This document shows positions 15,862-21,355 of a stretch of 64,000 bases of DNA, piece by piece (position 1 is the first letter of the stretch; each line of letters begins with the position of its first letter). Source of the stretch: Anaerolineae bacterium (GTDB lineage Bacteria > Chloroflexota > Anaerolineae > DRVO01). A program made the position numbers and the translations under genes. A model generated the notes under the pieces. The model made no database searches. It saw only the letters and a program-made list of their open reading frames with translations, and had not been told where the DNA came from. The stretch spans positions 1-64,000 of the forward strand of contig JABLXR010000017.1 of NCBI GenBank assembly GCA_013178015.1, read 5' to 3'.

Positions 15862-16080
15862 CTAGCTGCGCGCTAACTCTGGCTCAAGGGACTGCTCCGG
15901 CCGCTCGGCGCCCTCGCCGAACGGCAGCCACTTCAGCACCCCGATCCGGAACAGCTCGCCCCAGCACTCCTCGCACAGCAGCTGGCTGTGGTGGTAGCGG
16001 ATGCATCCTTGATGCACCTGCCCACCACACCGCGAGCATTCGCTAACTGCCCCGTCAGCCTGAACTCGGTTCATGCCCAT
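15862..16080 (-). CDS. Small zinc-binding protein, unknown role
   Basis: A 72-residue protein. GGAGGTG lies 10 bases before ATG 16080; a longer open frame upstream has no ribosome site. Cys 15, Cys 18, His 23, Cys 26, Cys 36 and Cys 39 form CxxC...CxxC pairs able to hold zinc, and the rest is a short amphipathic helix (WGELFRIGVLKWL) and an acidic tail. I do not recognise the family; small treble-clef or zinc-ribbon proteins of this size are often partners of larger enzymes or regulators. It lies just downstream of the PAS/zinc-ribbon protein gene on the same strand, 197 bases away. Confidence 0.55.
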   Translation of the reverse strand: MGMNRVQADGAVSECSRCGGQVHQGCIRYHHSQLLCEECWGELFRIGVLKWLPFGEGAERPEQSLEPELARS

Positions 16081-16277: not shown

Positions 16278-18542
16278 TCATTCGCTCACGCTAGCGCCCA
16301 GCCGCTCCAGGTGCTCCCTGAGCCAGCGGTACACCCCATCGTCGCGGCCCCACAGGAGCAGGCCCATGGACGCTCGGCGCCTCCCATCACCCGGGTTGAC
16401 GCTTTCCACGATCACCAACTCATCGCCCGCGGGGCAGTCCTCGTAGGGAAGAAGGCAGCTCACGTTCCGAGGTCGGCTTTGGCGCATCTCCTCTCCCTGG
16501 GCCCGTCCCATGCGCCAGGCCGAAGAGCGAGATAGCTTCAGCCCCGCCTCGCCCAGGAGACCGGTGATCTTGCCCAGGCTGAGGCCAAGGCCGTACAGAG
16601 CGGAGACCAGGGCCCGCGTCTCGCCCGCCTGGCGGCTGCGACTCACCCCGGGCGGGCGGTGGGAGAAGGTGCGGTCGCAGGCTCGGCACCGGTAGCGGAC
16701 CACTTCCACGCTGCTCCGTCGTCCGGCAAGGAGGCGGGACACCGTCTGGTGGCGCCGCAGCAGCTCGCTCCCACAGTAAGGGCAGCGTGCCGGACGGCGG
16801 GCAGTGGCGCCCTCGGTGGCCGGCATCATCACCGTCAGGCGGCGCCAGCCGCTCCAAGCAGGTGCCGGCCCGCCCGAATCTTCGCTGGGGGCAGCCGGCC
16901 TCGCCGGCCACCCGGCCGGGCGGGTGCGCTCGCTCACGTCAATGCAGCTCACCAGCAACTCGCCCTGCTCCAGCACCGCCCGATTCAGGAAGCGGTGGTA
17001 GGCGTCATCGGCGCAGCGCCAACGATACTCGAAGGACACCGAACCCAGGTGTAGCGCCCGCTGATACTGGGCCAGCACGCCCTCTCTATCCTCCGGGTGC
17101 AGCCGAGAGAGCCAGAAGCTCCCTTCCCGGGCGAAACGGTCGGGCGGATAACCGGTCACCGACCGGACCTTGTCGCTCGCCCACAAGGTGGGGAACGGGG
17201 GTCGGGCCTTCTTCCGGAAGAGTGCCACCGGCGCCGCTCCCAGGATCAGCTCTTGCTGTCGCTCGCTCTGGCGCAAGGCCTCTTGAGCGCGACGGCGGTC
17301 GGTCACGTCGCTGAGCACCCCTTCGACCGCCACCACCTCCCCCGAGGGACCCAGGATAGGGACCTGCCTCTGCTCCAACCAGATCACCGTGCCGTCCTTG
17401 CGCCTCCACCGCAAGGCCACCGGCCCCCGAAGAGTCTCCGGGGAGCGCGCCATGGCCTCGGCCACCAACCGGTCCTCCTCCACTACATTGTCCAGAAACC
17501 GATCCAGCCCGGCCTCGAACTCCTCCGGGGCGAAGCCAGTGACCGACCGCACCGACGGGCTTAGGTAATCGAACCCTGGCTGGGGAACCAAGCGGTACCG
17601 GTACACCACCGACTCGGTGACGTGATCGGCCAGCAGACGCATCCGGTCCTCCGTCAGGCGCAACGCTACCTCCATGCGCCTAAGGTCGGTCACGTCCCGG
17701 ACGCTGCAGGCGATGCTGACCGCCTCCCCGGTTCGGACCAGGTAGGCGATAGACTGCACCAGACGGCGCTTGCCGTCGGGCAACTCGATCTCCTGCTCCT
17801 GGAGCTCGTGAAGCCAGGGGGCGGCCCGGTCCCGCAGGGCCTCCGTCACCGCCTTCTCCAGCGCCGCCAGAGCCGCCGCAGTACGCTGCTCCTCTGGCAG
17901 GGCCCGGTGCTGCACCTCCCACAGCGGGCGCCCTCGGGTCTCGGACGCGGCCAAGCCGTAGATGCCCTCCAGAGCCCGGTTCCACTCCGCTATCCGACCT
18001 TGGGTGTCGGTCAGGTAGATGCCGTCAGGCGACTGCTGCACCATACTGCGGAACTTGGCCTCGCTCGCCTCCAGAGCTTCCTGGGCCTGTTTGTGCTGTA
18101 TGGCCTCCGTCAGACGCTCGGCCACCGCGTCCAGCAACCGCCTCTCGGCCAGCAGGAATGGTCCCTCATCGCTGGGAGGCCTCTCCTCCAGATAGGCCAC
18201 CTCCACCGCGCCCACCTTCTCCCCGCCGATGGCGATGTCACTCACTTGCTTCCAGGGGCTGTCTCGGAAGTTCGCGCTGGCGAAGACCTGATCCCGGTAG
18301 ATGATCCGGGCGCAGGTGACGTCGGGGTACTGCCAGGCCCGGGGGATCAACTTCACCGTGCCCTCGAAAATGCCCGGCAGCGAGATTCCGGGAACCAGAG
18401 TGAGGCGGGAGATGGCGTAGAGGCAGTCCAGCTCCTTGACCCGCTCACCCAGGTCGTGCGCCAGTTGCCTCAAGACGGGGTCGGCTTCTGTCGCGTGGGT
18501 TCCTTGCCCGCCTGGCAGGGCAGTGGGCACAGATGCCGTCAC
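16278..18542 (-). CDS. GAF-PAS-PAS-PAS sensor fused to transposase-type zinc ribbon/HTH
   Basis: A 754-residue soluble sensor. GTG 18542 is 8 bases after GGGAGGGG and overlaps the upstream stop (GTGA). Residues 36-150 form a GAF-like domain; PAS domains follow at about 160-290, 297-417 and 425-538, each ending in the DVT/DVS-(D/E)R stretch that normally leads to a kinase. No H-box or ATPase domain exists. Instead, after a Pro-rich linker (540-580), there is a zinc ribbon (Cys 587, 590, 619, 622) reading CPYCGS...YRCRACDRTF, then a helix-turn-helix at about 651-679, the arrangement at the N-terminus of IS1/ISL3-like transposases. The last 60 residues could be the first strands of an RNase H fold (ELVIVESV), cut short and without a catalytic Asp. 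I infer a one-component DNA-binding sensor; a chance fusion to a decayed transposase is the alternative. Confidence 0.75.
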   Translation of the reverse strand: MTASVPTALPGGQGTHATEADPVLRQLAHDLGERVKELDCLYAISRLTLVPGISLPGIFEGTVKLIPRAWQYPDVTCARIIYRDQVFASANFRDSPWKQVSDIAIGGEKVGAVEVAYLEERPPSDEGPFLLAERRLLDAVAERLTEAIQHKQAQEALEASEAKFRSMVQQSPDGIYLTDTQGRIAEWNRALEGIYGLAASETRGRPLWEVQHRALPEEQRTAAALAALEKAVTEALRDRAAPWLHELQEQEIELPDGKRRLVQSIAYLVRTGEAVSIACSVRDVTDLRRMEVALRLTEDRMRLLADHVTESVVYRYRLVPQPGFDYLSPSVRSVTGFAPEEFEAGLDRFLDNVVEEDRLVAEAMARSPETLRGPVALRWRRKDGTVIWLEQRQVPILGPSGEVVAVEGVLSDVTDRRRAQEALRQSERQQELILGAAPVALFRKKARPPFPTLWASDKVRSVTGYPPDRFAREGSFWLSRLHPEDREGVLAQYQRALHLGSVSFEYRWRCADDAYHRFLNRAVLEQGELLVSCIDVSERTRPAGWPARPAAPSEDSGGPAPAWSGWRRLTVMMPATEGATARRPARCPYCGSELLRRHQTVSRLLAGRRSSVEVVRYRCRACDRTFSHRPPGVSRSRQAGETRALVSALYGLGLSLGKITGLLGEAGLKLSRSSAWRMGRAQGEEMRQSRPRNVSCLLPYEDCPAGDELVIVESVNPGDGRRRASMGLLLWGRDDGVYRWLREHLERLGASVSE

Positions 18543-19126
18543 GGGCCCGTCCCCTCCCGGCTTTGCGGCCGCGGCCAGGGAAAGGCCAAGGGCTGGTCGC
18601 TATCGCGGTACACGTCCAAGAGCCTCCACCGCCGGATCGGGTTGCCTCCGGCGGCTCCCCAGTAGGGTCCCGCTGTGCCCACGTCGAAGGTGTAGAAGTG
18701 CAGGCGCGAGTCGTCACCGCCGACCACGGTTACGTGCAGGCGGGCCACCCCCGCGTGTTCCGGCGAGGAGATGGGGCCGGGCTCGCAGCAGTTCCGCCAC
18801 CACTCCACCCCATGGATCTGATACCGCAACCCGGGAGCCATCGCCAGTAGCTCATCGGTTACGGATTCCCGGCGCTCCTGTAACTCGAGGGCAGCACCAT
18901 CCCGGAGGGGCCAGGCGGCCAGAGCCGCCGGCCGGTCCTGCCGGTTGACCGCTCCCAGGTAGGATGCCAGCCGGCGCTCCGAAGTCTCGCCCATCAGCCG
19001 CTCGATCAGTACGTGCGACTCCGGGAAGACGAGGTCCAGCACCCCAGCGTAGGCAGCCCCGGCCACGAGCAGCACCAGGACCGCACCCGTCCCCAGAATC
19101 AGAACCAAGCGTAGCCGTCTGCCCAT
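18539..19126 (-). CDS. Membrane-anchored extracytoplasmic protein, unknown
   Basis: A 195-residue protein with one N-terminal transmembrane segment (about residues 6-28) and a soluble domain outside the membrane. The domain (SYLGAVNRQDRPAALAAW, then beta strands ending DVYRD) has the helix-then-sheet order of NTF2-like folds, but this is only a resemblance. GGGGG precedes ATG 19126. Its stop overlaps the GTG start of the multi-PAS protein (GTGA at 18539-18542), so the two are co-translated, and it may be a membrane partner or signal input for that protein. It is divergent from the methyltransferase at 19270. Confidence 0.7.
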   Translation of the reverse strand: MGRRLRLVLILGTGAVLVLLVAGAAYAGVLDLVFPESHVLIERLMGETSERRLASYLGAVNRQDRPAALAAWPLRDGAALELQERRESVTDELLAMAPGLRYQIHGVEWWRNCCEPGPISSPEHAGVARLHVTVVGGDDSRLHFYTFDVGTAGPYWGAAGGNPIRRWRLLDVYRDSDQPLAFPWPRPQSREGTGP

Positions 19127-20035: not shown

Positions 20036-20500
20036 GTGCTGGGCGAGCCGCATCTGAAGGCTCTGCGCACCGTGTGCTCCCGGCTAGAGGGTGCCGCCAT
20101 CAACTGGGTGCTCACCGACAGCACCGCCTTCGCCGCCCAGGGCCTTCCCCTGCAGCCGCACGACATAGACCTGCAGGCGGATGCAGCCGGGGCCCACGCC
20201 ATCGAGGCAGCCCTGAAGGAGTACATGGTGGAGCCGGTCGCCTTCTCCTCTAGCGGACGCATCCGCTCCCATTTCGGCCGCGCCATCCTGGCCGGAGTGC
20301 GCGTGGAGATCATGGGAGACGTGGAAGTCCTGCTGCCCGACGGCACCTGGCGACCGCCGCCAGACATCCCCCGGCTCCGGCGCTGGGTGACCGCGGGCGG
20401 CCTGCGACTACCCGTACTTCCCCTGGAGTACGAGTGTCGGGCCTACCTCCAGCTGGGACGCCTAGATCGGGCAGAGCTGCTGCGCCGGTACCTTAGCTGA
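20036..20500 (+). CDS. Nucleotidyltransferase-fold domain protein
   Basis: A 154-residue protein starting at GTG 20036, 4 bases after the methyltransferase stop. The run INWVLTDSTAFAAQGL with PHDIDLQ near 41-47 has the pattern of the nucleotidyltransferase fold (helix start, then DxD). The usual GS pair is replaced by TDS, so catalysis is uncertain. Later VEIMGDVEV and a Leu-rich C-terminal helix fit small aminoglycoside-nucleotidyltransferase-like or AbiEii-like proteins. No toxin or antitoxin partner is directly attached. Function unknown. Confidence 0.6.
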   Translation: MLGEPHLKALRTVCSRLEGAAINWVLTDSTAFAAQGLPLQPHDIDLQADAAGAHAIEAALKEYMVEPVAFSSSGRIRSHFGRAILAGVRVEIMGDVEVLLPDGTWRPPPDIPRLRRWVTAGGLRLPVLPLEYECRAYLQLGRLDRAELLRRYLS

Positions 20501-20670: not shown

Positions 20671-21006
20671 ATGGCTAGCGAGCGAGACAGAACTGGGGTA
20701 GCCGCTGCACTGCGGGAGGCAGTCACTCGCCTCGTCGCCTGCCTCAACCCTGAGCGTATCATCATATTCGGTTCGCAGGCTCGATCGGATGCCGGCCCGG
20801 AGAGCGACATTGACCTCTTGGTGGTCCTGCGCGACGAGCAATCCGTGGGCCTGGCCGAGGACAAAGCCTACCGCGTCCTCGCCGACCTGGAGGTTCCGGT
20901 CGATGTGGTCGCCGTGAACGCGCGATTCCTGGAGACCTACGGAGACCTGGTGGGCACCGTGACGCGAACCGCCCTGCGAGAGGGCAAGGTGCTATATGCC
21001 AGGTGA
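20671..21006 (+). CDS. MNT-type nucleotidyltransferase antitoxin
   Basis: A 111-residue minimal nucleotidyltransferase. The GSx10DxD motif is exact: Gly 34-Ser 35, then Asp 46 and Asp 48 (GSQARSDAGPESDID). In MntA/HepT modules this protein adds AMP to the HEPN RNase partner and so silences it. GAGG precedes ATG 20671 by 4 bases and a good promoter lies upstream. The partner gene starts at 20996, overlapping the last 11 bases, the usual order and overlap for such pairs. The partner is damaged, so the antitoxin may be an orphan. Confidence 0.8.
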   Translation: MASERDRTGVAAALREAVTRLVACLNPERIIIFGSQARSDAGPESDIDLLVVLRDEQSVGLAEDKAYRVLADLEVPVDVVAVNARFLETYGDLVGTVTRTALREGKVLYAR

Positions 21007-21355
21007 ATCGCGCGAGGCTGCCGCGGAGCTAGCGCGGGATTGGCTCAGGCATGCCCGTGACGACCTGGCGGTAGCTCGCCTCGCCGGCGACGAGAGAGTC
21101 GCCCCGGGCATCGCAGCCTTCAGTGCTAAGCACGCAGCCGAGAAGGCCTTGAGAGCTCTCCTCGTCGCAAGGCAGGGGGCGGCTCGGTGGCGCGGCCCGT
21201 CCACCCACGGGTCCACGATGACGTCGTCACCGGGGTCGAACCAGTCCATCGGCTGGCTCAGCGCGGTCAACTGCCGGCCTCGAACCGCAACTCTACCGAA
21301 TCCGCCACCGGTTCGTATCCGATCTCCCGGTAGATGTGGTTCGAGGTGGGGTTAG
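20996..21355 (+). pseudogene. Broken HEPN toxin gene, partner of MNT antitoxin
   Basis: The first 60 residues are a clear HEPN helix pair (ARDWLRHARDDLAVARLAG, FSAKHAAEKALRALLVARQG). After about position 21180 the frame turns to Pro/Ser/Arg-rich sequence and runs into the 3' end of the acetyltransferase gene on the other strand. Reading one frame over between roughly 21210 and 21280 gives VHPRVHDDVV and VHRLAQ, resembling the HDL-type second half of HEPN proteins, so a frameshift plus truncation is likely. The second helix pair that would complete the RNase fold is missing. Without the ORF break this would be the toxin of a MNT-HEPN module. A genuine short protein is less likely. Confidence 0.65.

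Follow-up and report, generated by a model that had tools for sequence, protein, structure and literature searches.

The 754-codon gene on the reverse strand of the 64,000-nucleotide stretch analyzed here (the window) was deduced to encode, more likely than not, a cytoplasmic one-component regulator with a transposase-derived predicted DNA-binding domain. The protein consists of a GAF domain and three PAS domains that continue, in one frame, into the complete N-terminal zinc ribbon-helix-turn-helix (HTH) part of an ISL3/IS66-like transposase whose catalytic part is gone (Table 1). A broader scenario is judged to be slightly favored: bacteria of this phylum would have repeatedly cut one transposase type at the same point to yield selected zinc ribbon-HTH regulators in metabolic and metal-transport operons, one of which became attached to a GAF-PAS sensor, making it a regulator under signal control.

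Table 1. Features of the fusion gene, its neighbors and the stand-alone relatives placed in conserved gene orders (positions in the window unless another locus is named)
Feature	Position	Strand	Basis or remark
Fusion gene, 754 codons: GAF, three PAS, linker, zinc ribbon, HTH, truncated RNase H	16278..18542	-	ORF, Pfam, NCBIfam, codon-position bias
GAF-fold sensor head, residues 20-165, WQYPDVTC motif	18048..18485	-	Head identities; AF2 and Foldseek
PAS domain 1, residues 163-283	17694..18056	-	Pfam PAS/PAS_4/PAS_9
PAS domain 2, about residues 300-430	17253..17645	-	Second PAS_3/PAS stretch; NF041777 328-441; approximate boundaries; ends DVTDRRR
PAS domain 3, about residues 432-540	16923..17249	-	Pfam PAS_3 454-523; ends DVSERTR
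Pro/Ala-rich linker, 25 residues (541-565)	16848..16922	-	Odd codon composition; all frames free of kinase sequence
Zinc ribbon, residues 585-633; Cys587, Cys590, Cys619, Cys622	16644..16790	-	Alignments; AF2; NrdR and ISCth4 matches
Helix-turn-helix, residues 636-688	16479..16637	-	AF2 helices; structural matches to NarL, VqmA and IstA HTHs
N-terminal part of RNase H-like fold, no catalytic Asp motifs	16281..16463	-	Alignments; low-confidence beta-beta-alpha-beta in model
Upstream membrane-anchored gene (UP) overlapping the sensor	18539..19126	-	51% identical in G001, no sensor after it
Small zinc protein	15862..16080	-	Conserved beside UP in sister species, not tied to sensor
Stand-alone module in IclR - cyclase - sugar ABC transporter operon	L060 3638-4318 (G006); L061 4139-4792 (G053)		
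Stand-alone module near Fur and cbiM	L115 5049-5735 (G717); L116 4939-5721 (G672)		

The reading of a single chain with both sensor and output is supported by the following data. ORF analysis returned one uninterrupted frame, as first described, with a GTG start, and the codon-position bias reached the last codon, with GC1/2/3 of 0.72/0.48/0.83 for residues 691-754 versus 0.71/0.46/0.84 for residues 1-540. The PAS domains exceeded the Pfam cut-off (PAS_3 at 95 bits, PAS_4 at 59 and PAS at 57). The head had no match in Pfam and was assigned to the GAF fold from its AF2 model (pLDDT 89), for which the Foldseek matches were GAF-type structures, namely the A. aeolicus NLH1, NifA and CodY GAF domains. 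Both parts of the sensor proposed in the preliminary description were thereby recovered, the PAS domains by Pfam and the GAF domain by model and fold match. The head was 42-50% identical to the heads of kinases and regulators in other organisms, and these relatives carry histidine kinase (L031, L033 and L034, the first two read by eye from the sequence), sigma-54 AAA/Fis (L032) or LuxR HTH (L035) outputs. Judged from these sequences, the transposase module sits in the output slot that they fill. A search of the genome contigs with the whole protein matched relatives of the sensor domains only. The HisKA and HATPase domains of a sensor histidine kinase are missing from the protein (Pfam and NCBIfam), and inspection by eye of the alternative frames, both at the junction and further downstream, showed neither.

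The origin of the C-terminal module was deduced from alignments with full-length relatives. A 347-residue transposase from G003, which scored above the Pfam cut-off for both DDE_Tnp_IS66 and DDE_Tnp_ISL3, aligned with nearly the whole module (E 3e-19, 34%), while matches of the module itself to the ISL3/IS66 transposase models of NCBIfam were weak, at 22.9-26.4 bits versus cut-offs of 180 bits. The initial assignment to an IS1/ISL3-type N terminus was therefore retained for ISL3 and abandoned for IS1, as the closest transposases are ISL3/IS66-like. The four cysteines claimed for the zinc ribbon were located as two CxxC pairs. The DDE catalytic domain is lacking, as the protein stops before the second Asp and the first Asp motif is unconserved; no downstream frame resembled the catalytic part, which is absent rather than frameshifted. 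Terminal inverted repeats around the gene amounted to weak short matches, none of them convincing, and the genome search found the module in single copy. No match was obtained for the full-length transposase in a plasmid search, PADLOC gave no hit, and a sequence search of the PDB found nothing meaningful.

In the AF2 model of the module, most of the zinc ribbon had block mean pLDDT values of about 94-96 and the HTH 82-87, with helices at 65-80, 85-94 and 101-117 (module numbering), while the tail was not confident. Structure comparison gave modest similarities, of the zinc ribbon to the ribbon of the NrdR repressor (Z 5.0, 2.0 A over 45 residues), of the module to the ISCth4 transposase (Z 5.7), and of the HTH to those of NarL, VqmA and IstA (Z 4-4.5). 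Foldseek found no match for the module at E<=0.001. The DNA-binding output is a predicted one, assigned by homology and model.

At the junction, the module has kept the N-terminal strand native to the transposase family, with LTV in 'WRRLTV' aligned to VTL in 'MAIVTL'. Since the alignment reaches this strand, the join was placed at or just before the ancestral start codon of the module. The linker region (30 codons, residues 541-570) was alone in being atypical, with a GC2 of 0.90 and a negative in-frame coding score, and is possibly former intergenic DNA. A frameshift or hidden kinase at this point was considered and rejected, as the remaining frames held stops and nothing recognizable.

A single genome yielded the fusion, and the sister species G001 lacks it. 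The PAS-zinc ribbon order did not recur among the matches listed from somewhat more than 700 genomes sampled across the phylum, nor among those from the class sample or the order sample of three genomes; the genus was represented by one other genome, G001. No paper on PAS-transposase fusions was found in the literature. In the tree, the fusion module fell within a transposase subgroup (support 85/92) on a long branch of length 1.63. Since the cysteines and HTH were kept along this branch, the fusion is not a recent insertion, and a recently inserted IS was ruled out by the long branch together with the lack of a second copy. The stand-alone genes were scattered among the transposases with three to four changes of label over a weak backbone. 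Their repeated domestication is likely, and a single origin would also be compatible with the starred branches. The fusion module is probably another, independently derived copy.

These stand-alone relatives were recovered from the phylum and class samples as intact free-standing frames, some 205-230 residues long, that contain the same module (G006, G053, G208, G502, G717, G672, G481 with two, G586, G453, G465 and G493, and the expanded set of G095), so that modules of like length are known from at least nine genomes of the phylum besides that of the fusion. They end 9-34 residues past a common position, compared to 6 residues for the fusion and a further 160 for the transposase relative; this comparison left out G095, and G493 as a near-copy of G465. 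The RNase H-like tail of the fusion, proposed to be an abortive start, stops where they stop and is more plausibly the regular C terminus of a domesticated module that recurs. The fusion thus shares module and end point with this family but is not free-standing, as it has GAF-PAS in frame. The dN/dS values were 0.006/0.099 for G465/G493, 0.27/1.16 for G717/G672 and 0.20-0.35/0.73-1.19 within another family, the synonymous sites of the distant pairs being close to saturated, and show that the stand-alone modules are under purifying selection. Gene order was also shared. In G006 and G053, which belong to different families, an IclR regulator, a cyclase, the module, a sugar-binding protein and an ABC transporter follow in that order, and in the two species G717 and G672 a Fur-family regulator and the module lie beside cbiM (cobalt/nickel uptake). 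This evidence from selection and synteny belongs to the stand-alone relatives, the fusion itself being present in one genome. Three of the stand-alone proteins were tested against Pfam at 0.01 and had no match. Taken together, the relatives would look like selected, domesticated proteins with a putative DNA-binding role, and this recurrent family may be more interesting than the fusion. In G095, up to ten module matches were counted (L008, L017, L022, L026, L029 and others), a lineage-specific expansion; those that were read are truncated and have variable C-terminal tails.

The GTGA overlap with the upstream gene was confirmed from the coordinates, the UP stop TGA lying at 18539-18541 and the sensor GTG at 18540-18542. 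UP has no Pfam family; the invariant motifs EWW..CCEP and YWG.GG.PIRRW are present in both UP and its sister-species homologue. In G001, the UP homologue (51%), a methyltransferase and the small zinc protein occur in the same order, but no sensor gene separates UP from the zinc protein. In the window, UP runs about eight residues past its conserved end before its stop overlaps the sensor start, and the overlap is probably a by-product of the insertion of the sensor; alternatively, the sensor gene could have been lost in G001. No conserved association of sensor and UP was seen in this comparison with one other genome, and UP is probably a neighbor rather than a functional partner. Since UP and the small zinc protein adjoin in G001 with no sensor between them, the suggestions that UP is an envelope-sensing partner and that the zinc protein is a third part were both left unsupported. 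What survives of the earlier one-component proposal is the sensor chain with a transposase-derived output, most likely a regulator, detached from the envelope and the zinc protein. Elsewhere in this region, a nucleotidyltransferase and an overlapping HEPN-domain gene at 20671-21355 (+) form a typical MNT/HEPN pair (Pfam NTP_transf_2 and HEPN), and a nucleotidyltransferase-like gene at 20036-20500 (+) (Pfam Aminoglyc_resit) follows the methyltransferase in G001 too.

The main rival to a working regulator is decay, in which the end of a sensor gene that had lost its kinase acquired a fragment of an old transposase; the tail would be functionless, and the sensor might still work or the gene be dispensable. 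Confinement to a single genome, absence from the sister species, loss of the catalytic part, the atypical linker and the placing of the module among full-length transposases, apart from the stand-alone genes, are all consistent with this. However, the frame has no stop or frameshift, codon bias is normal across the module, the four cysteines and the HTH have been kept at 1.63 changes per site, the truncation point is that of the selected stand-alone genes, and neither IS ends around the gene nor transposase remnants downstream of it were found. Decay was accordingly deemed unlikely, while still deserving serious weight. The preliminary description had held that a decay or assembly product of a single strain would speak against it; the restriction to one genome was indeed observed, but no sign of decay was.

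An assembly chimera, or a sequencing indel joining two genes, was considered very improbable. The host genome is a metagenome-type assembly in 97 contigs in which the fusion was seen once, and the linker differs in composition, but both flanks are syntenic with the sister species, sensor and module share one codon-position pattern, and neither gene continues in an alternative frame at the junction. It is likewise very improbable that two products are made, the zinc ribbon-HTH being additionally translated from an internal GTG/ATG near 16829-16832 and acting like the stand-alone proteins. The codons of V571-M572-M573 do lie close to where members of the module family natively begin, but a well-placed ribosome-binding site was not seen by eye, and the native N-terminal strand, which lies upstream of these codons, would presumably be lost.

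For the preferred reading, a transposase-derived regulator under sensor control, the gene would have arisen from the joining of a sensor gene to a module gene, probably just before the module start codon, with the linker as the former gap. A ligand, redox or light signal received by the GAF and PAS domains would alter dimer geometry, which in turn would control DNA binding by the zinc ribbon-HTH, and the bound domain would repress or activate promoters. Its target sites may once have been the ends of old transposons. If this is correct, it would represent the capture of a transposase by a bacterial signaling protein and a route by which signaling proteins gain new DNA-binding specificities, and the module would define a small family, amenable to testing, for which Pfam yielded no match.

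The fusion resembles known PAS/GAF one-component regulators, such as the LuxR-type PAS-HTH protein VqmA and the GAF-PAS-sigma54 protein L032, in having sensor and (predicted) DNA-binding output in one chain, and it has the GAF head in common with its homologues L032 and L035. These regulators use a LuxR or Fis HTH as output, whereas the fusion has the zinc ribbon-HTH of a transposase in that place. With ISL3/IS66-like transposases such as the 347-residue protein of G003, it shares a zinc ribbon, HTH and RNase H start alignable to the whole module, but it differs in having no DDE part, added sensor domains, a single copy and no terminal repeats found. The stand-alone zinc ribbon-HTH-half RNase H proteins have the same module and end point and likewise no catalytic part, but they are without sensor domains, and in the tree the fusion module clusters with another subgroup of transposases.

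The recycling of transposase DNA-binding domains as regulators is well described in eukaryotes, and the best-known bacterial case is TldR. In the eukaryotic regulators, host proteins reused the transposase DNA-binding domain or were joined to it (PMC10027918, PMC12062965), and the transposases concerned belong to superfamilies other than that of the fusion. The TldR proteins are nuclease-dead TnpB transcription factors that are RNA-guided and tied to host genes (PMC13418256, citing Wiegand 2024). They are comparable in being bacterial transposon proteins that lost catalysis and were turned into regulators. They differ in being RNA-guided and unrelated in sequence, while in the fusion recognition would be a task of the protein, to which sensor domains have been added. 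The present family would then be a recurrent, protein-guided bacterial version of such recycling, one copy of which was wired to a GAF-PAS sensor.
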